In this document: positions 472 through 36,050 of the stretch, in pieces
Numbering within the stretch: the first letter of the stretch is position 1
Layout of the letters: each line of letters starts with the position of its first letter
NCBI GenBank assembly: GCA_028716725.1
Contig: JAQUPG010000014.1
Location: 1 to 41,723, forward strand
DNA: 41,723 nucleotides
Origin: Patescibacteria group bacterium
GTDB taxonomy: Bacteria > Patescibacteriota > Patescibacteriia > Patescibacteriales > JAQTRU01
Direction: 5' to 3'
Made by a program: the position numbers and the translations under genes
Notes under the pieces: generated by a model
Told to the model about the DNA's origin: nothing
Database searches by the model: none
Seen by the model: the letters and a program-made list of their open reading frames with translations, nothing else

Positions 472-597
472 AAATAACCAATAATCAAATTTCAAACAAT
501 ATTCAATAACTAAATTCTAATACCCAAACATTTTTATTAATTGATTATTGAATATTGATATTTGTTTGGTTATTGTTTCTTGATTGTTGATTATTAT
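472..597. repeat. AT-rich inverted pair of ~7-bp-period repeats between atpA and atpG
   Basis: Left arm ccaataatcaaatttcaaacaatattcaataa; right arm ttgattattgaatattgatatttgtttggttattg. Confidence 0.7.
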
Positions 598-2205: not shown

Positions 2206-2362
2206 CGCGGGGCTCCTTTGCTAAATAGGTTTTAAAAAATGGACAAAAATATAGGATTATTATTAATAATAACTATAGTTTATTAATAAAATAATATATC
2301 ATATAATAAATAAGTTGTCAATCCTTAAAAATTAAAGGTAAAAAATAGAAAATCAAAGATAG

Positions 2363-3799
<1,437 letters not shown>

Positions 3800-5070: not shown

Positions 5071-5348
5071 ATGATAAAACCAATCCATGACAATGTTGTC
5101 ATTAAACCGATTGCGGAAAACGAGACAACCAAGTCCGGCATCGTTCTGCCTGACACGGTGGATAAGGAAAAGCCGGAAAAAGGAGAAGTTTTGGCCGTGG
5201 GTGAAGGTAAGCTCCTGGATAACGGCCAAACAGCAAGAATGTCCGTAAAGGTCGGGGACAAAGTTATGTTTAAAAAATATTCTCCGGACGAAATAAAAGT
5301 TGACGGAGAGGAATATCTGGTTATAAGCGAAAGCGATATAATAGCAAT

Positions 5349-5361
<13 letters not shown>
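5071..5361 (+). CDS. groES: Co-chaperonin GroES
   Basis: MIKPIHDNVVIKPIAENETTKSGIVLPDTVDKEKPEKGEVLAVGEG; SD aggagg upstream; supplied ORF start 5038 is probably too early. Confidence 0.97.
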
Positions 5362-7073
<1,712 letters not shown>

Positions 7074-9677: not shown

Positions 9678-9688
9678 AATTTAGAAAT

Positions 9689-9730
9689 AAAAAAAGTAGG
9701 GACAGCTCGCGAGCTGTCCCTACTTTTTTT
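9689..9730. terminator. Bidirectional terminator between convergent genes
   Basis: AAAAAAAGTAGGGACAGCTCGCGAGCTGTCCCTACTTTTTTT. Confidence 0.92.
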
Positions 9731-9737
9731 ATTTAAT

Positions 9738-16248: not shown

Positions 16249-16500
16249 ATGGCAAAAAAGCAAGTAAAAAATAATATAGAAGATAAAATCAAAAAATCAA
16301 TAGAAAGAGTCCGGCCGAGCCTGCAGGCTGACGGCGGAGACATTGAATTTATCGGCTGGTATCCGGAAACCGGTATTGTCCAGGTGAGTTTAGTCGGCCA
16401 TTGCGCCCATTGCCCTATGTCGCAGATGACTTTAAAGCAGGGGATTGAAGCCGAAATTAAGAAGGCAGTGCCTGAGGTAAAGGAAGTGATTAACGCGTAA
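16249..16500 (+). CDS. NifU C-terminal domain protein (Nfu-type Fe-S scaffold)
   Basis: IKKSIERVRPSLQADGGDIEFIGWYPETGIVQVSLVGHCAHCPMSQMTLKQGIEAEIKKAVPEVKEV. Confidence 0.95.
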   Translation: MAKKQVKNNIEDKIKKSIERVRPSLQADGGDIEFIGWYPETGIVQVSLVGHCAHCPMSQMTLKQGIEAEIKKAVPEVKEVINA

Positions 16501-16526
16501 CGTGGAACGCATAACGCATAACGCTT
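16492..16526. repeat. Heptad tandem array, left flank of the S23 cassette
   Basis: AACGCGT AACGTGG AACGCAT AACGCAT AACGCTT. Confidence 0.9.
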
Positions 16527-16533
16527 TTAAAAT

Positions 16534-16878
16534 ATGGATTTTCATGATGAGCTTAAATTAACAATGCATCAATATGTAAAGTTGATATATAAACTGGCGA
16601 AGAATTTTCCTCAAGACGAATTGTATGGGGTAACTTCACAAATAAGAAGATCGGCTATTTCAATAATATTAAACTATATAGAAGGTTTCGCGAGGAGAAA
16701 AAGTGATAACTGTAAAGTTTATCGAAATTTTTTAGAAATTTCTTATGGATCGCTAAAAGAGTCGAAATATTTATTATTTTTTTCTTATGAAGAAAAATAT
16801 ATCATAGAGGAGGAATATAAGTCAGCGCTTTTATTAGCTGATAAAATTGGAAAAATGCTTTGGAGTTTAATAAAATAA
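16534..16878 (+). CDS. Four-helix bundle protein, S23 / 23S rRNA intervening-sequence protein family
   Basis: MDFHDELKLTMHQYVKLIYKLAKNFPQDELYGVTSQIRRSAISIILNYIEGFARRKSDNCKVYRNFLEISYGSLKESKYLL. Confidence 0.92.
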   Translation: MDFHDELKLTMHQYVKLIYKLAKNFPQDELYGVTSQIRRSAISIILNYIEGFARRKSDNCKVYRNFLEISYGSLKESKYLLFFSYEEKYIIEEEYKSALLLADKIGKMLWSLIK

Positions 16879-16885
16879 TTAGAAT

Positions 16886-16922
16886 ACGTGTAGCGCGTTA
16901 TGCGTTACGCGTTACGCGTTAT
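16886..16922. repeat. Heptad tandem array, right flank of the S23 cassette (inverted relative to the left)
   Basis: ACGTGTA GCGCGTT ATGCGTT ACGCGTT ACGCGTT AT. Confidence 0.9.
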
Positions 16923-18155
16923 ATGAGTATATATTTTGACCATAGTGCTACCACGCCGGTAGACAAAAAAGTGTTGAAAGAGATGATGCCGTATTTTAAC
17001 GAGAAGTTCGGCAACCCGTCGTCAATTCATAGTTTTGGCCAGGCGGCCATGGCCGGAGTTGATAAGGGGAGGGAACAGGTGGCCGAGTTTTTAAATTGCG
17101 AGCCGGAGGAAATAATTTTTACTTCTGGAGCAACCGAGTCTGATAACCTGGCTTTGCGGGGCGTTATTAGCGCAGTAAAAAGACAGGGCGCGAAAAAGCC
17201 GCATGTTATTACGACTTTGATTGAACATGATGCCGTGCTCCAGCCCTGTTTGGAAATGGAAAAAGAAGGCGTGGAAATTACCTTTTTACCGGTTAAACCC
17301 AACGGCGTGGTGGATTTGGAAAAATTAAAAAAAGCCATAAAGGACAATACGGTTTTGGTTTCCGTCATGTACGTTAACAGCGAAGTCGGCAGCATTCAGC
17401 CGATCAGAGAAATCGGCAAGATTATAGAAAAGGTAAATAGAAATAAGTTGAATGAATGGAAAAAAGGAAGGACTAAGGACAGGGGAGAAAAACCACGGCC
17501 GATTTATTTTCATACGGACGCGACCCAGGCCTTAAATTTCCTGCCTGGCAACACGAAATATCTTCATGTTGATTTGTTAAGCTTGTCCGGGCATAAAATT
17601 TACGGGCCAAAAGGCGTGGGCGCGCTGTTTGTTAAAAAAGATGTTCCGCTTAAGGCTATCCAGCTTGGCGGGCATCATGAAAAAAATTTAAGAAGCGGCA
17701 CGTTAAATGTACCCGGAATTGTGGGGTTAGGCGCGGCTATCAGTCTTTTGGACGAAGAAACTGTTAAAAACAATAATGCCAAAATCGCCAAACTGCGGAA
17801 TATGCTCGTGGACGGCATTAAGAAAAATATTCCGGACGTTATTTTAAATACTGACCGGGAAAACTCCACGCCAGGGCATGCTCATTTTTCTTTTTTGGGC
17901 GTGGAAGGGGAGTCAATTTTAATTGCCTTAGATTTAGAGGGAATTGCGGTTTCTACCGGTTCGGCTTGCGCTTCGGGTTCTCTTAAAGCTTCTCATGTTT
18001 TACTCGCTATGGGCATAAAAAAGGAAATTGCCCACAATTCCATCCGTTTTAGTTTAGGCAAGAATAATACGGAAGCGGAAATTAAAAGAGTTATAAAAAT
18101 TCTGCCGTCGATTATAAGGAAGTTAAGAGGAATGAATCCAGACTATAAGAAATAA
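16923..18155 (+). CDS. nifS: Cysteine desulfurase
   Basis: MSIYFDHSATTPVDKKVLKEMMPYFNEKFGNPSSIHSFGQ; LSGHKIYGPKGVGALFVK; STGSACASGS; ORF start 16860 reads through the repeat. Confidence 0.96.
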   Translation: MSIYFDHSATTPVDKKVLKEMMPYFNEKFGNPSSIHSFGQAAMAGVDKGREQVAEFLNCEPEEIIFTSGATESDNLALRGVISAVKRQGAKKPHVITTLIEHDAVLQPCLEMEKEGVEITFLPVKPNGVVDLEKLKKAIKDNTVLVSVMYVNSEVGSIQPIREIGKIIEKVNRNKLNEWKKGRTKDRGEKPRPIYFHTDATQALNFLPGNTKYLHVDLLSLSGHKIYGPKGVGALFVKKDVPLKAIQLGGHHEKNLRSGTLNVPGIVGLGAAISLLDEETVKNNNAKIAKLRNMLVDGIKKNIPDVILNTDRENSTPGHAHFSFLGVEGESILIALDLEGIAVSTGSACASGSLKASHVLLAMGIKKEIAHNSIRFSLGKNNTEAEIKRVIKILPSIIRKLRGMNPDYKK

Positions 18156-22110: not shown

Positions 22111-23940
22111 ATGGAGAAATTAAAAAAATTTAAAACCTGGGCAAAGAGAAAATGGCCGCTCCTGGCTGTGATAATTTTAGCGGTTATTTTTTTCTTTGGC
22201 GCTTCCAGCTATAACTATTTGACCCAGGCGGACGGGTTTGCGAAATGGTCTTCGCCGGACGAAACCGCCAATTATATTTTTTCTAAACTTTACGGCCAGA
22301 GCGGGCAAATGCAGGTATTTGAAAAATATAATTTGATAAGCGGCGATATAATCCATCCGCGAAGTTTCGGGAGCGCTAATGGCAATTTGAAACCCGTTAG
22401 CTTTTTAGGGATTATTTTAATTTACGGATTTCTGGCCGGCCTAACCAGCTTTAAAATATTGCCGTTTTTAACTCCCGCCTTCGCCGCTCTGGGGATTGTA
22501 TTTTTTTATCTCCTGATTAAAAAACTTTTTGGGCCGCGCAACGGCCTGATTTCGGCCTTCTTGTTGGCGTCTTTCCCGCCTTATATTTATTATTCGGCCC
22601 GGAGCATGTTTCATAACGTTTTGTTTGTCGTGCTCTTGATTTTTGGTTTGTATTTTGGCTTATTGGCGGCCGGGAAAAAATATGGGTGGAGAAAATTGGA
22701 TTTGTTAAACTGGCTTTTTATTGCCTTATCCGGTTTTCTTCTCGGCCTTGCTATTATTACCAGGACTTCGGAATTGCTTTGGCTAGGTCCGATGCTTGTT
22801 ATTATCTGGCTTTTTAATGTTAAAAAAATCGGTTTTACGAAATTAATATTTTTTTTATCGGCTTTATTTTTGGCAATCTTGCCTGTTCTTTATTGGGACC
22901 AAATCCTGTACGGCTCGCCAATGGCCGGCGGTTATCCGGAAATGAACCAGTCAATTGAGACTTTGGTTGAATCAGGCGGAGATTTAGTAAAAGCAACCGC
23001 CGTTGGTAATTTAGCTTATAGCCGGGAAATGTTCAATAAAATAAAAGGCGCTATTTTCCATTTCGGCTTTGCCCCGAGGCAGTCAATTAGAATGCTTTAT
23101 TATTATTTTGCCAACATGTTTCCCTGGCTTTTCTGGCCGGCGGTTTTAGGCGGGCTTTTGTTTTTTCAGAAACTTTTGCGCTGGAGAAAAAGGCATTTGG
23201 TTTATTTGATAGTTTACGGGATTATTTCCGTTATTTTGCTTTTTTATTACGGCAGCTGGATTTTTCACGACAATCCCGATCCTCGCAGTTTCACCATCGG
23301 CAATTCTTATACCCGTTATTGGCTGCCGATTTATCTTGGAGCCCTGCCCTTTGCCAGCTTATTTTTAATTAAATTTACCAAAGCGATATTTCCCGGTTTT
23401 TCCCAAAAATCCGAGTTGGAAAACGGTGGGGGCAACTCCTTAAACAAAGCTGTCTTGCCCGCAATTGGCAACTTCCTAAAAGGCCAATGCAAGCGTTTGC
23501 GCATAATTTTTTTCGTCAACAGCAGCCGGGTAATTCTTATCGCTTTGGTTTATTTTATTTCCATTTCCTTTGTTTTATTCGGCTCGGAAGAAGGCCTGGT
23601 TTATTCCGTAGAGAGCCAGAGAAAATCAAAGTATGAGCTGGAAAGAATTTTAGAGCTGACCGAATCCAATTCTGTTATTATTACCCGTTATCACGATAAG
23701 GTTTTTTTCCCGGAAAGGAAAGTTATTGTCGGCCTGTTTGACGATGACAGCATGAATGCCCGTTACGGGAAATTAATAAATTATTTGCCGGTTTATTATT
23801 ATAATTTTATTTTGCCGGAAAAAGATTTAAATTATTTGAATGAGGAGAAATTAAAAGCAGTGAACCTTATGATAACGCCGGTTGAAAAAATTACGGGAGA
23901 TTTTACTTTGTATGCCTTGGCAAAATATGAACCCCGTTAG
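22111..23940 (+). CDS. Membrane glycosyltransferase, GT39/ArnT-like
   Basis: KWSSPDETANYIFSKLYGQSG and many TM helices; last codons CCC CGT TAG lie in the repeat element starting at 23931. Confidence 0.8.
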   Translation: MEKLKKFKTWAKRKWPLLAVIILAVIFFFGASSYNYLTQADGFAKWSSPDETANYIFSKLYGQSGQMQVFEKYNLISGDIIHPRSFGSANGNLKPVSFLGIILIYGFLAGLTSFKILPFLTPAFAALGIVFFYLLIKKLFGPRNGLISAFLLASFPPYIYYSARSMFHNVLFVVLLIFGLYFGLLAAGKKYGWRKLDLLNWLFIALSGFLLGLAIITRTSELLWLGPMLVIIWLFNVKKIGFTKLIFFLSALFLAILPVLYWDQILYGSPMAGGYPEMNQSIETLVESGGDLVKATAVGNLAYSREMFNKIKGAIFHFGFAPRQSIRMLYYYFANMFPWLFWPAVLGGLLFFQKLLRWRKRHLVYLIVYGIISVILLFYYGSWIFHDNPDPRSFTIGNSYTRYWLPIYLGALPFASLFLIKFTKAIFPGFSQKSELENGGGNSLNKAVLPAIGNFLKGQCKRLRIIFFVNSSRVILIALVYFISISFVLFGSEEGLVYSVESQRKSKYELERILELTESNSVIITRYHDKVFFPERKVIVGLFDDDSMNARYGKLINYLPVYYYNFILPEKDLNYLNEEKLKAVNLMITPVEKITGDFTLYALAKYEPR

Positions 23941-24036
23941 AAATCTGCGGGGACATCTAAATTTAAATGGGAAAAGTATTTGAAAGATAAATAGTATGGT
24001 TATTGATAAAAAAAATAACAAAATTTCTAACGGGGT
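23931..24036 (+). mobile_element. 106-bp inverted-repeat (MITE-like) element, copy A
   Basis: ACCCCGTTAGAAAT ... ATTTCTAACGGGGT terminal inverted repeats; includes the start codon of miaB. Confidence 0.75.
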
Positions 24037-25330
24037 GAAAAATAAAAAGACATATTATATAATCACTATCGGTTGTCAAATGAACAAGTCAGATAGCGAG
24101 AGAGTAGCGGCTTACTTAGAAAAATATGGTTTTAGTTTGGCCAGGAATGAAACTAAGGCGGATTTAGTCGTGCTCACGACCTGCGGGGTGCGGCAAGCGG
24201 CCGAGGACCGAGTTTATGGTTTAGTGGGGGAAATTAAAAGGAAAAATCCAAAAGCGAAAATTGTTTTGACAGGGTGTTTGAGCGAGAGGAAAGACGTAAA
24301 GAAGAGATTGGGTGATAAGGTGGACGTGTGGCTGCCAATATCACAAATTTTAAATTTTAAATTTCAAATTTTAAAGAAAATCCGAAATCCGAAATCCGAA
24401 ATCCGAAATTGCGATTATTTAAAAATAAAACCGAAATATAGTTCAAAGTTTTCGGCTTTTCTAGCCATTGGGAACGGCTGTAATAATTTTTGCGCCTATT
24501 GCGTTGTGCCTTATGCGCGGGGGCGGGAAGTTTATCGGCCGGCTAAAGAAATTTTGGCGGAAGCGAAAAATTTAATAAAGAATGGGTATAGGGAGGTTAT
24601 TTTAATTGCGCAAAACGTTAATTCGTACAAAGACGGAAAAATTAATTTTTCTAAACTCTTGAAAATAGTCAATAATATCCCTGGTGATTTCTGGATAAGG
24701 TTCGCCACCAGCCACCCCAAGGATATGAGCAACGAGTTGATAAAAACCATGACGAATTGTGGAAGAGTCTGCAAGCATATACATCTGCCTGTGCAAGCCG
24801 GAAATGACAAAGTGTTGAAGGCGATGAACCGCAATTATACGGTGGCGCATTATAAAAATTTAATAAAAAACATCAGGCAAGCTATGCCTGAAGCATCAAT
24901 TACTACTGACGTTATCGTAGGTTTTCCGGGAGAGACGAAGAAGCAGTTTAGCAACACAGCTAAGTTATTTAGAAAAATAAAGTTCGATATGGCTTATATT
25001 GCCCGCTATAGCCCGCGTCCGGGAACAGCAGCTTATAAATTAAAAGATGATGTAGCGCCAGAAGAAAAGAAGAGGCGGGAAGAAGAATTAATGAAAATTT
25101 TGCGCAAAACCGCGCTGGAGAATAATGAAAAGTATTTGGGGAAAACCATAGAGGTGCTAATTAGCGGAAAAAATAAAAGAGGGGAGTGGTATGGGTATAC
25201 GGGGACGAATAAAAATGTGAAAATTAGAATTACGAATTACGAATTACGAATTACGAATCTAACAGGGAAGTTCGTGAAAGTTAAAATAACTAAGGTAAGA
25301 GATTTTGGGTTAGAAGGGACTATTGTGTAA
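23996..25330 (+). CDS. miaB: tRNA-2-methylthio-N6-dimethylallyladenosine synthase
   Basis: YYIITIGCQMNKSDSERVAAYLEKYGF; GNGCNNFCAYCVVPYARGRE radical SAM; C-terminal TRAM. Confidence 0.95.
   Translation: MVIDKKNNKISNGVKNKKTYYIITIGCQMNKSDSERVAAYLEKYGFSLARNETKADLVVLTTCGVRQAAEDRVYGLVGEIKRKNPKAKIVLTGCLSERKDVKKRLGDKVDVWLPISQILNFKFQILKKIRNPKSEIRNCDYLKIKPKYSSKFSAFLAIGNGCNNFCAYCVVPYARGREVYRPAKEILAEAKNLIKNGYREVILIAQNVNSYKDGKINFSKLLKIVNNIPGDFWIRFATSHPKDMSNELIKTMTNCGRVCKHIHLPVQAGNDKVLKAMNRNYTVAHYKNLIKNIRQAMPEASITTDVIVGFPGETKKQFSNTAKLFRKIKFDMAYIARYSPRPGTAAYKLKDDVAPEEKKRREEELMKILRKTALENNEKYLGKTIEVLISGKNKRGEWYGYTGTNKNVKIRITNYELRITNLTGKFVKVKITKVRDFGLEGTIV
24345..24408. repeat. Two back-to-back heptad arrays in the miaB coding sequence
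   Basis: ~4x AAATTTT/AAATTTC (24345-24372) and 4 perfect TCCGAAA (24381-24408). Confidence 0.95.
25229..25256. repeat. Heptad array, 4 perfect ATTACGA, in the miaB TRAM region
   Basis: attacgaattacgaattacgaattacga, encoding ITNYELRITN. Confidence 0.97.
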
Positions 25331-25339
25331 AGTGGAAAT

Positions 25340-26287
25340 ATGCCAATAAATAACAATAAAATTATCGTAGTTTTAGGCACAACCGCTTCAGGTAAAACTA
25401 AGCTTGGGGTGGATTTGGCGTATAAATTTAACGGGGAAATTATTAGCGCGGATAGTCGGCAGGTTTATAAGGGGATGGACATTGGGACTGGGAAAGACTT
25501 GAATGAATACGAAGTCAAAAGTCAAAAGTCAAAAGTCAAAAGTATCCCGTATCATTTGATAGACGTGGTTAATCCAAATACAAAATTCAGTTTGGCTAAA
25601 TATCAGAAACTGGCGTTTAAGGAGATTGATAGTATTTTAAAGAAAGGTAAGGTTCCGATTATTGTGGGCGGGACCGGTTTGTATTTGCAGGCCGTGGTTG
25701 ATAATTATAATTTAAGCGGGGCTAAGCCGGATAAAAAATTAAGGGGAAATTTAGAGAAAAAAACGGTGCCAGATTTATTTTCGGAACTCAAAAAAATAAA
25801 TCCTAAATTCGCCGAGCGATTGAACGAAAGTGAGAGAAAAAATAAAAGAAGATTGATCCGTTATATTGAGATAATGCAAGATAAGGGGGTTCGACCCCCC
25901 ATAGGGGGTCGAACCCCCAAAGCTGGTCATGACTTTTTTTTGTTGGGCTTAACCTGGCCTAAAGAGGTTTTAAAAGAAAGAATTTATAAAAGATTGATTG
26001 AGAGATTAGAAAAAGAAAATATGGCGGGGGAGGTGGAAAAATTACATAGAGAAGGGGTAGATTGGAAAAGATTGGAAAGTTTTGGTTTGGAATATAAATA
26101 TATTTCTCTATATCTGCAGGATAAGTCGAGTCATGAGGAAATGGTGGAAAAATTAAATATTGCTATCAGGCAATTTGCCAAAAAGCAGATGACCTGGTTC
26201 AGGCGTTGGGAAAAGCAGGGGAGAGAAATTCGTTGGATAAAAGACGGGAAAGAAGCGGAAAAACTGGTAAGGGAATTTTTAAAATAA
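25340..26287 (+). CDS. miaA: tRNA dimethylallyltransferase
   Basis: IIVVLGTTASGKTKLGVDLAYKFNGEIISADSRQVYKGMDIGTGK; PYHLIDVVNP; GGTGLY. Confidence 0.96.
   Translation: MPINNNKIIVVLGTTASGKTKLGVDLAYKFNGEIISADSRQVYKGMDIGTGKDLNEYEVKSQKSKVKSIPYHLIDVVNPNTKFSLAKYQKLAFKEIDSILKKGKVPIIVGGTGLYLQAVVDNYNLSGAKPDKKLRGNLEKKTVPDLFSELKKINPKFAERLNESERKNKRRLIRYIEIMQDKGVRPPIGGRTPKAGHDFFLLGLTWPKEVLKERIYKRLIERLEKENMAGEVEKLHREGVDWKRLESFGLEYKYISLYLQDKSSHEEMVEKLNIAIRQFAKKQMTWFRRWEKQGREIRWIKDGKEAEKLVREFLK
25514..25541. repeat. Heptad array, 4 perfect GTCAAAA, in miaA
   Basis: gtcaaaagtcaaaagtcaaaagtcaaaa, encoding VKSQKSKVKS. Confidence 0.97.
25885..25918. repeat. 34-bp GC-rich palindrome in frame within miaA
   Basis: GGGGGTTCGACCCCCCATAGGGGGTCGAACCCCC, encoding GVRPPIGGRTP. 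Confidence 0.95.
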
Positions 26288-32467: not shown

Positions 32468-32514
32468 ATTACCTTTAGACAAGAAAAGAGTGCTCCTTGC
32501 ACCCCCTTGTGTTA

Positions 32515-32642
32515 AATCCAAAATTCAAAATCACAAATTCCAAATAAATTACAATAATCAAATTCAAAATTCAAAAATGTTTTGAAATTGGTTATTTGAA
32601 TTTTGATATTATTTGTTATTTGTAATTTTGGATTTTGAATTT
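32515..32642. repeat. Long AT-rich inverted pair of heptad-period repeats between adk and tmk-dut
   Basis: ccaaaattcaaaatcacaaattcc...aaattcaaaattcaaaa / gaaattggttatttgaattttgatatt...aattttggattttgaattt. Confidence 0.85.
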
Positions 32643-32643
32643 A

Positions 32644-33306
32644 TTATTTTTTAAGGACTTCTGTTATTTGTCTGCTTACCTCTGGTATCGGCGGCATGCC
32701 GTCAATTTTTTTATAAACACCTTTCTTTTGGTAGTAGTCAATTAAGGGTTTGGTTTCCTTATTGTATAGATCCAGCCTTTTTTTTATCGTTTCCGGTTTG
32801 TCATCTTCTCTTATAACTAATTTTTCTCCGCATGCACCGCAGATCTCATCATTTTTCGGAGGATTGTAAATCAGATGATAAACTTTCTGGCATTTAAGGC
32901 AGGTTCTTCTCTGACTTATTCTTTTTATGGCCTCTTCGTCGCTGATCCAGACTTCTAAGACTAAATCTATCCCTTTTATTTTATCTAAAAATTCTGCCTG
33001 GGTCAAATTGCGGGGAAAGCCGTCTAAAATAAAGCCGTTAGTGCAGTCTTTTTGTTCTAAGCGCTGTTTTGTAATCTCATTGGTAATTTCATCAGGCACC
33101 AGAGCGCCGGATTTAACGATTGAGTCAATTTTTTTTCCTAATTCAGTCTGGTTTTTTATATTTTCCCTGAAAATTTCACCGGTAGAAATATGGGGGATGC
33201 CGAGCCTTTGGCTAAAAATATCGGCCTGTGTGCCCTTGCCTGATCCTTGCGGTCCCATGATGATTATATTTACCCCGTTAGAAATTTTATTATTTTTCTT
33301 ATCCAT
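32644..33306 (-). CDS. adk: Adenylate kinase
   Basis: IIIMGPQGSGKGTQADIFSQRLGIPHISTGEIFRENI...DGFPRNLTQAEFL; four-Cys lid CLKCQKVYHLIYNPPKNDEICGAC. Confidence 0.97.
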   Translation of the reverse strand: MDKKNNKISNGVNIIIMGPQGSGKGTQADIFSQRLGIPHISTGEIFRENIKNQTELGKKIDSIVKSGALVPDEITNEITKQRLEQKDCTNGFILDGFPRNLTQAEFLDKIKGIDLVLEVWISDEEAIKRISQRRTCLKCQKVYHLIYNPPKNDEICGACGEKLVIREDDKPETIKKRLDLYNKETKPLIDYYQKKGVYKKIDGMPPIPEVSRQITEVLKK

Positions 33307-33378
33307 AATAATATATTTATTGATTTTTTTAACATTTCATTTTTATCCGTTTATTTCTAGTAAGATTTCTAACGGGGT
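33272..33378 (-). mobile_element. 107-bp inverted-repeat (MITE-like) element, copy B
   Basis: ACCCCGTTAGAAAT terminal inverted repeats on both sides; includes the start codon of adk. Confidence 0.75.
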
Positions 33379-33383
33379 GAATA

Positions 33384-33941
33384 TTATTCCAAATTTTTGA
33401 TTAAATTATCAATTTGTTGCTGTAATTTTTCTAAAGTAGAATCATTGGTTAAAGTAAATTGGGCTTGGCTCATGACTTCCGGAATGGTTAATTCGGTTTC
33501 TTGCTGTTCATCGGCTAAAAATTGTTCATAAATTTTTTTAGAATCATCCGCGTTTTCCGTTCTCGAAGTTAATCTTTCATATCTTATTTTCGGTTCAGTT
33601 TCCACTTTTACCAGTTTAAATTCCGGCAAATCTTTTAGATATTTTATATCAGACAATCGCCTGATGCCGTCAATGACTATTAAATTATTGGTTTCATTCC
33701 TGACATCGCCGGCGATTACTTTAGCCAGTAAATCATCGCCAAATCCTTGACGCAGAACTTTAGAGATATTTTGCATGTTTTCCCTGGTAATCTCTAAATA
33801 CAGTCTATTCAAAACATCCCGGAGAGGGGTGGAAAAGCGATAAGCAATTGCTCCATATTTATTTACTAAATATTCGGCGACTGTGCCTTTGCCGCAAGAA
33901 ATTTTTCCGACCAGGCCAATGATTATTTTTTTATTAGGCAT
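33384..33941 (-). CDS. P-loop nucleotide kinase-like protein (dephospho-CoA kinase/dNMP kinase-like)
   Basis: IIIGLVGKISCGKGTVAEYLVNKYGAIAYRFSTPLRDVLNRL...LIVIDGIRRLSDI. Confidence 0.8.
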   Translation of the reverse strand: MPNKKIIIGLVGKISCGKGTVAEYLVNKYGAIAYRFSTPLRDVLNRLYLEITRENMQNISKVLRQGFGDDLLAKVIAGDVRNETNNLIVIDGIRRLSDIKYLKDLPEFKLVKVETEPKIRYERLTSRTENADDSKKIYEQFLADEQQETELTIPEVMSQAQFTLTNDSTLEKLQQQIDNLIKNLE

Positions 33942-34452: not shown

Positions 34453-34487
34453 TTAAGAATTAAGAATTATGATTTAAGAATTAAGAT
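34453..34487. repeat. Heptad array between DHFR gene and thyA
   Basis: TTAAGAA TTAAGAA TTATGAT TTAAGAA TTAAGAT. Confidence 0.9.
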
Positions 34488-35918: not shown

Positions 35919-35987
35919 AGTTTTTGTTGCGAATAAGTTTGTTAGAGTATTTCTATTTTAGCAGATTAAAAAAAAGAGGGCAAATCA

Positions 35988-36050
35988 CATAACTCATAAC
36001 GCGTAACGCATAACATTACCCCCTTTCGAAAAGGGGGTTGGGGGTTTTTA
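35988..36050. repeat. Heptad array followed by GC-rich palindrome
   Basis: CATAACT CATAACG CGTAACG CATAACA then ccccctttcgaaaagggggttggggg. Confidence 0.85.

Follow-up and report, generated by a model that had tools for sequence, protein, structure and literature searches.

An S23 gene boxed by inverted heptad arrays between nifU-C and nifS

The 41,723-nucleotide stretch of DNA analysed here (the window) carries an S23-family gene that lies, outside any 23S rRNA gene, between a gene for a NifU C-terminal domain (nifU-C, 16249-16500) and nifS. Its product matched both family profiles well above their cut-offs, PF05635 at 90.9 bits against 33.8 (E = 7e-26) and TIGR02436 at 92.6 bits against 24 (E = 2e-26), and therefore belongs to the S23 family. 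The initial annotation had described five 7-bp units to the left of this gene and five inverted units to its right, and we recovered the same units at the same coordinates, with both arms detected as 7-bp arrays (Table 1). It had also noted that the cassette splits an Fe-S pair, which was borne out at the base level: the last codons of nifU-C and its stop (TAA, 16498-16500) fall inside the left array, and the right array stops just short of the nifS start codon. Inverted-repeat detection returned arms of 27 nt at 16491-16517 and 16895-16921, 93% complementary and 377 nt apart. When the two 60-bp flanks of the gene were compared, they gave an inverted-repeat score of 24, with a maximum of 17 among 4832 same-spacing controls in the window.

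Table 1. Position of the S23 cassette and of the other 7-bp arrays in the window (G001 and G002 are two congeners)
Feature	Position	Strand	Remark
Left arm, five 7-bp units, consensus AACGCRT	16492-16526	+	AACGCGT AACGTGG AACGCAT AACGCAT AACGCTT; overlaps the end of nifU-C
S23 / 23S rRNA-intervening-sequence protein gene	16534-16878	+	114 aa, four-helix bundle, pI 8.9; PF05635, TIGR02436
Right arm, five 7-bp units, reverse complement of the left units	16886-16920	+	ACGTGTA GCGCGTT ATGCGTT ACGCGTT ACGCGTT; ends 2 bp before the nifS ATG (16923)
Whole cassette	16485-16925	+	as RNA, a 27-bp stem whose loop holds the S23 gene; z = -6.2 vs shuffles
Gene-less inverted 7-bp-period pair (hairpin)	473-595		other units at the orthologous G001 site
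Gene-less inverted 7-bp-period pair	2328-2403		same units in G001
Gene-less inverted 7-bp-period pair	5342-5436		GCGTTAT units instead in G001
Two adjacent arrays, AAATTTT then AAATCCG	24345-24409	+	in frame within a miaB-like gene
AATTACG array	25227-25258	+	in frame, close to the end of miaB; G001 and G002 carry other units there
AAGTCAA array	25512-25543	+	in frame within miaA; units differ in G001
Gene-less inverted 7-bp-period pair	32514-32653		other units in G001
Single TTAAGAA array	34453-34486		unit type of the congeners' S23 cassettes L012/L013
Single gene-less array, unit type of the AACGCRT cassette (CATAACGCGTAACGCATAAC)	35981-36014	+	

The further inverted heptad pairs without a gene that had been noted in the window proved real at the four sites listed, and single unpaired arrays were found in addition to them. 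Two other repeats were also seen. A second dispersed inverted repeat, ACCCCGTTAGAAAT ... ATTTCTAACGGGGT, is unrelated to the heptad arrays and occurs at 33263-33387 and in the 23925-24050 region of the window, as well as near another locus (L009). A perfect 25-bp palindrome, AAATAAAAAAAGTAGGGACAGCTCG with its complement, lies between two genes at 9685-9734 and is probably a terminator or a palindromic element.

The S23 protein is predicted to share the fold of pentameric homologues

The AlphaFold2 model of the window S23 protein reached a pLDDT of 96.7. Its best structural match was Xcc0516 (2gsc, TM 0.88), followed by 2rld (TM 0.82-0.86), and both of these crystals contain five chains. Xcc0516 is a homopentameric toroid according to Lin 2006 as relayed in PMC4990558. 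The resemblance of S23 proteins to Avd mentioned in the initial annotation held for the predicted fold (4dwl and 8ub7, TM 0.75-0.80), and the Avd-specific profile scored the protein at 23.7 bits, below its cut-off of 80. The median pI of 133 S23 proteins was 9.1. Six residues (Q36, N47, E50, G51, R54 and E76 in the numbering of the window protein) are invariant in 46 S23 sequences and may form a polar stripe suited to catalysis or to binding contacts with nucleic acid; we know of no catalytic site in S23.

Inverted arms of period 7 or 8 flank S23 genes across phyla

This genome (G000, 1.08 Mb) holds 11 S23 genes, and the two congeners hold 15 (G001) and 19 (G002). All 11 genes of G000 have inverted arms at a score of at least 13, with arm units particular to each S23 family (AACGCRT, AATTAAC, AATTACG, ACAGTAA, the 8-bp AAAATAAC and others). 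At a score of at least 18 in 130-bp flanks, arms were present at 8 of the 11 G000 genes versus 0 of 299 random spans of the same spacing, and at 11 of 20 S23 genes of the genus versus 1 of 595. The initial annotation had proposed examining S23 flanks in related CPR genomes, and there the same score was reached at 13 of 35 genes versus 1 of 985 random spans; in other phyla it was reached at 42 of 73 versus 28 of 2674. Random spans of equal spacing served as background throughout, as swapping left and right flanks between loci was discarded as a control because subfamilies share units and thereby inflate swap scores. The contigs were scanned with one S23 query, a 12-sequence alignment being too diverse, and arrays in these draft genomes were scored with fixed thresholds.

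Among arm periods of 5 to 12, essentially only 7 and 8 were enriched. Inverted repeats box most of the roughly 130 S23 genes outside G000, in CPR, Bacteroidota, Planctomycetota, Nitrospirota, Cyanobacteria and more, with about a quarter to a third of those sampled showing no clear arms. Distant units include GTGAACG in Lentisphaerae, GGAACCG in Phycisphaerae, CAGTCAG in Clostridia and AGGCACAG in Nitrospirae, and inverted 7-bp arrays flanked six of eight plasmid-borne S23 genes of cyanobacteria and Azospirillum. No S23 gene was found in phage records. The median number of units per arm was 4.7 on the left and 4.4 on the right, values shaped by detection limits, and the idea that five units answer to five subunits is only a hint.

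Several individual loci are worth recording. A GGGAGTA-armed cassette sits between nrdB and nrdA on the Nostoc edaphicum plasmid pNe_5 (L224), where it is, as a rare case, antisense to both genes. S23 genes with 7-bp arrays are also inserted between cas genes: Anabaena sp. 90 has the order cas6 - S23 - cas4 in a type I-D CRISPR locus, and Pseudanabaena has it in a similar one (L226, L227). Across 157 arrays, left arms were A-rich (A 41%, T 24%) and right arms T-rich, with the same strand bias in most families.

Arrays are nearly confined to genomes that carry S23

In 436 kb of G000 we counted 81 period-7 and 24 period-8 arrays, compared with 3-14 for other periods except the doubled periods 14 (40) and 16 (15); these counts include one N-run per period, and Markov-2 simulations gave 0-1 per period. 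The resulting total of about 105 arrays is far above the need of 11 S23 genes, and the surplus takes the form of gene-less inverted pairs and of lone arrays, whose units are often of a type seen in one of the genus's S23 families. Within the phylum, 72 period-7 arrays were found in 292.6 kb from 20 S23-rich genomes versus a single one in 314.5 kb from 20 S23-negative genomes (24.6 versus 0.3 per 100 kb), the stretches compared being the starts of contig 1 rather than random draws over each genome. The other odd periods did not differ between the two groups. When only stretches of at least 19 kb were considered, a period-7 array was present in 11 of 12 S23-rich and in 0 of 14 S23-negative genomes. 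Arrays are thus nearly confined to S23-bearing genomes, and their dependence on S23 is well supported. General mobile-element load partially confounds this tie, because S23-positive genomes are also richer in RT (55 of 111, versus 20 of 80 S23-negative genomes) and in Y1 transposases (68 of 111 versus 26 of 80), each being about three times likelier where S23 is present.

Period follows the S23 clade, and units travel with their gene

On a tree of 133 S23 proteins, 101 of them labelled with a period of 7 or 8, the label changed 12 times versus 33.8 times after shuffling, and none of 500 shuffles came as low, although shuffling does not fully remove phylogeny. Both periods occur within G000, each with its own S23 clade. 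The similarity of units at non-homologous sites, read in the sense of the gene, was 0.17 between proteins of 30-50% identity, 0.36 at 60-75% and 0.62 above 75%, and stayed flat at 0.14-0.18 in the reverse sense. Unit sequence travels with the S23 gene, and period follows the S23 clade. The proposal in the initial annotation that S23 may bind, process or mobilise the hairpin accords with this association of clade, period and unit sequence. In Flavobacteriia, the arrays lying up to 2 kb from S23 genes of the octad type were mostly heptads (7 versus 1), so the background period is not simply that of the closest S23; further S23 genes may be present in these genomes.

Orthologous sites exchange units, genes and gene-less hairpins

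The DNA of G001 and G002 is about 80% identical to that of the window. The initial annotation had envisaged relatives with an empty nifU-C/nifS site; neither congener has one, and both carry in place of the S23 cassette a gene-less hairpin of a different, AATTTTC-type sequence. Its suggestion that gene-less pairs are non-autonomous relatives fared better: at a site where G001 and G002 have S23 (L020/L021), the hairpin of G000 has arms of the same AAAGTTAT type but no gene (L163). At the L006/L024 site, G001 holds a different S23 family with different units (L012). Overall, the comparison of the window with G001 yielded about six sites with different units in both, two with the same units and about nine occupied in G001 only, and the three genomes differed in which in-frame arrays of miaB and miaA they have and in the units of these. 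This reuse of sites suggests either that one array is a target for another or that insertion is tolerated at few sites. Measured against IS elements and MITEs, the cassettes have inverted arms, their arm sequence varies by family, and neither a target duplication nor a precise empty site bearing one was found at the orthologous sites compared. Arm enrichment at S23, near confinement of arrays to S23 genomes and the gain, loss and replacement of arrays at orthologous sites together support the earlier idea of a mobile cassette.

S23 genes are strongly co-oriented with their surroundings. With the longest open frames taken as neighbours, both neighbours lay on the strand of S23 at 99 loci and both on the opposite strand at 8 (binomial p ~4e-21), so that either the element needs a host promoter or its insertion is linked to transcription. 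Three S23 copies contain an internal stop codon (L002, L019, L024), as expected of a decaying selfish gene.

Alternative explanations and the role of partner enzymes

A retroelement, in which the Avd-like S23 works with an RT acting in trans and movement proceeds by way of a hairpin RNA copy, would accommodate the Avd fold, the sense orientation and the excess of RT in S23-positive genomes. However, no RT was found in G000 or G001 despite their 11 and 15 S23 copies, and none was detectable in 19 of the 47 genomes with at least four S23 genes, which leaves this explanation unlikely.

The analogy with RAYT/REP that the initial annotation had drawn held for the layout, which resembles that of REPINs, and failed for the enzyme. 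Were a Y1 (HUH) transposase elsewhere in the genome to move the hairpins, with S23 as accessory or cargo, one could cite the presence of Y1 in all three congeners (G000, G001 and G002) and its over-representation alongside S23. Yet the window cassette contains no Y1 gene, none was detectable in 14 genomes with 4-11 S23 copies, the flanks of the Y1 genes in these genomes bear no heptad arrays, and units are unrelated between families, whereas RAYTs recognise a defined REP motif. We consider movement by Y1 improbable.

Equally hard to credit is host regulation, under which operon mRNA would be tuned through arrays that act as binding sites or as RNase III sites, and S23 would be an RNA-binding regulator rather than a mobility factor. 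Arrays do adjoin start codons, S23 is co-directional with its operon, and a translational role has been proposed for TAACTGA repeats (PMC4679880); against this, unit and presence vary at orthologous sites between congeners, copies are many per genome, arrays lie within miaA and miaB, and S23 decays to pseudogenes.

Passive growth, in which replication slippage extends arrays in AT-rich spacers where S23 merely lands or survives, is already strongly disfavoured and very improbable. It draws on the variability of units, the AT-richness of many arrays and the indels in multiples of 7 seen in cyanobacterial arrays (PMC4679880), but it does not fit the restriction to periods 7 and 8, the near absence of arrays from S23-negative genomes of the same phylum and similar GC range, arms that are inverted copies sharing units, a period that follows the protein clade, or GC-rich units such as GGGAGTA and GTGAACG.

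Least probable of all, the GxxExxY PD-(D/E)XK nuclease might be the missing enzyme of the S23 system, given that S23 is also present in 30 of the 33 genomes that carry it (Fisher p 1e-5), that 18 of 37 of its genes have inverted arms versus 4 of 902 random spans, and that at one orthologous site G001 has S23 where G000 has GxxExxY, but it is missing from 81 of 111 S23 genomes and its own arm motifs are looser, spaced at 9-11 bp (CACTGA, ACGAAT) and not 7/8-bp periodic. GxxExxY more probably represents a parallel class of element, nested in S23 genomes. The GxxExxY / PDDEXK_3 nuclease loci with inverted repeats on both sides fall within L232-L274 (e.g. L254, L255, L266 and L234).

RT, Y1 and GxxExxY were all missing from three genomes with 4-6 S23 genes, and no recombinase was found within the cassette. 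RT, Y1 transposase and GxxExxY nuclease are dispensable, so the remaining machinery is that of universal host enzymes, some other enzyme or S23 itself.

A proposed mechanism for S23 hairpin elements

Repeat rows that are common only in S23 genomes point to a previously unrecognised tiny mobile element. Our best reading is a minimal mobile hairpin element, related to the 23S rRNA IVS, whose sole protein is a pentameric, nucleic-acid-binding S23 and which uses host enzymes. On the sequence comparisons above, the hairpins are probably mobile and S23-dependent. We consider it likely that the S23 gene and the arms on either side constitute a single small mobile element, in a family we call S23 hairpin elements, and that it operates in the manner set out below.

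When transcribed, the element would form a long hairpin, with arms of inverted 7- or 8-bp units and the S23 gene in the loop. S23, as a basic pentameric ring of the Avd fold, may bind the arrays as single strands or as the hairpin, probably with one unit per subunit, which would explain the fixed spacing of 7 or 8. The protein would then present the hairpin to host replication or repair enzymes, and these would copy it into new sites, often ones that already bear an array; arrays without S23 would be moved in trans. At the RNA level, the hairpin may be excised, in the way that RNase III removes the rRNA IVS, or it may be tolerated; either way, the host would survive an insertion between the genes of an operon. 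The specific combination of a one-unit-per-subunit footprint with copying by host replication or repair is put forward tentatively and may well need revision.

Relation to known repeats and mobile elements

The nearest kin are the IVSs of the 23S rRNA genes of Leptospira and Coxiella, which encode the same protein family, place the ORF in an RNA hairpin loop by terminal inverted repeats and are considered selfish. In contrast to an IVS, which is defined by its place in the 23S rRNA, the elements described here occur in many copies, both within and between protein genes, with periodic arms on either side, and have gene-less derivatives. Rickettsia palindromic elements are likewise short repeats kept in frame inside genes, but they are not known to have a 7-bp period or S23. 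REPIN/RAYT systems also combine small inverted hairpins dispersed in trans with rarer gene-carrying copies; here, however, the cassette neither contains nor requires a Y1 transposase, and its arm sequence is free, only the period being fixed. Avd of diversity-generating retroelements is a basic pentamer of the same fold, whereas S23 elements have no RT, template repeat or variable repeat. The element thus lacks a defining feature of the IVS (rRNA location), of REPIN/RAYT (Y1) and of diversity-generating retroelements (RT), and we file it as a new kind, with an ordinary member of the S23 family as its protein.

Cyanobacterial STRRs are heptameric tandem repeats, and the 81 period-7 arrays in 436 kb of G000 match the STRR type in being dispersed, mostly intergenic tandem 7-bp units. 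Such 7-bp intergenic arrays, many per genome and sometimes in inverted pairs, also comprise GGGGA(C/T)T of cyanobacteria, GGGAATC of Xanthomonas and TAACTGA of Beggiatoaceae (PMC4692102; PMC4679880). X. campestris has about 186 GGGAATC-type arrays (PMC4692102) and is also the source organism of the S23 structure 2gsc. No association with mobile elements was found for the GGGAATC and GGGGA(C/T)T arrays (PMC4692102), and the authors of both studies reported no mobile partner or mechanism, whereas the arrays described here, in other genomes than theirs, are tied to S23. In Coxiella, three GACAGAT heptamers directly precede the S23 gene of the IVS, in a number that varies by strain (PMC4990558). 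The Coxiella heptamers and the TAACTGA, GGGAATC and GGGGA(C/T)T arrays were known before as pieces without a link, and no paper joining S23 with heptad arrays was found in the literature searched, which included few subscription papers and no preprints.

It is conceivable, though short of probable, that S23 proteins found a separate class of mobile or repeat-writing system, in which a recombinase-free pentameric ring, its subunit footprint setting the 7- or 8-nt unit, both creates and spreads arrays of almost any sequence, and that this one mechanism lies behind cyanobacterial STRRs, the Xanthomonas and Beggiatoa heptamers, rRNA IVSs and the hairpins of CPR. These findings offer a testable role for a widespread protein family of unknown function whose structures have been solved since 2006, and a candidate cause for the heptameric repeats of cyanobacteria, xanthomonads and giant sulfur bacteria, which were described without a mechanism. 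The arrays in frame within miaB and miaA are a source of lineage-specific inserts in CPR proteins and explain such variable in-frame inserts. More generally, our results suggest that a mobile element may live without a recombinase of its own, with an arm sequence that is nearly free and a period set by its protein.
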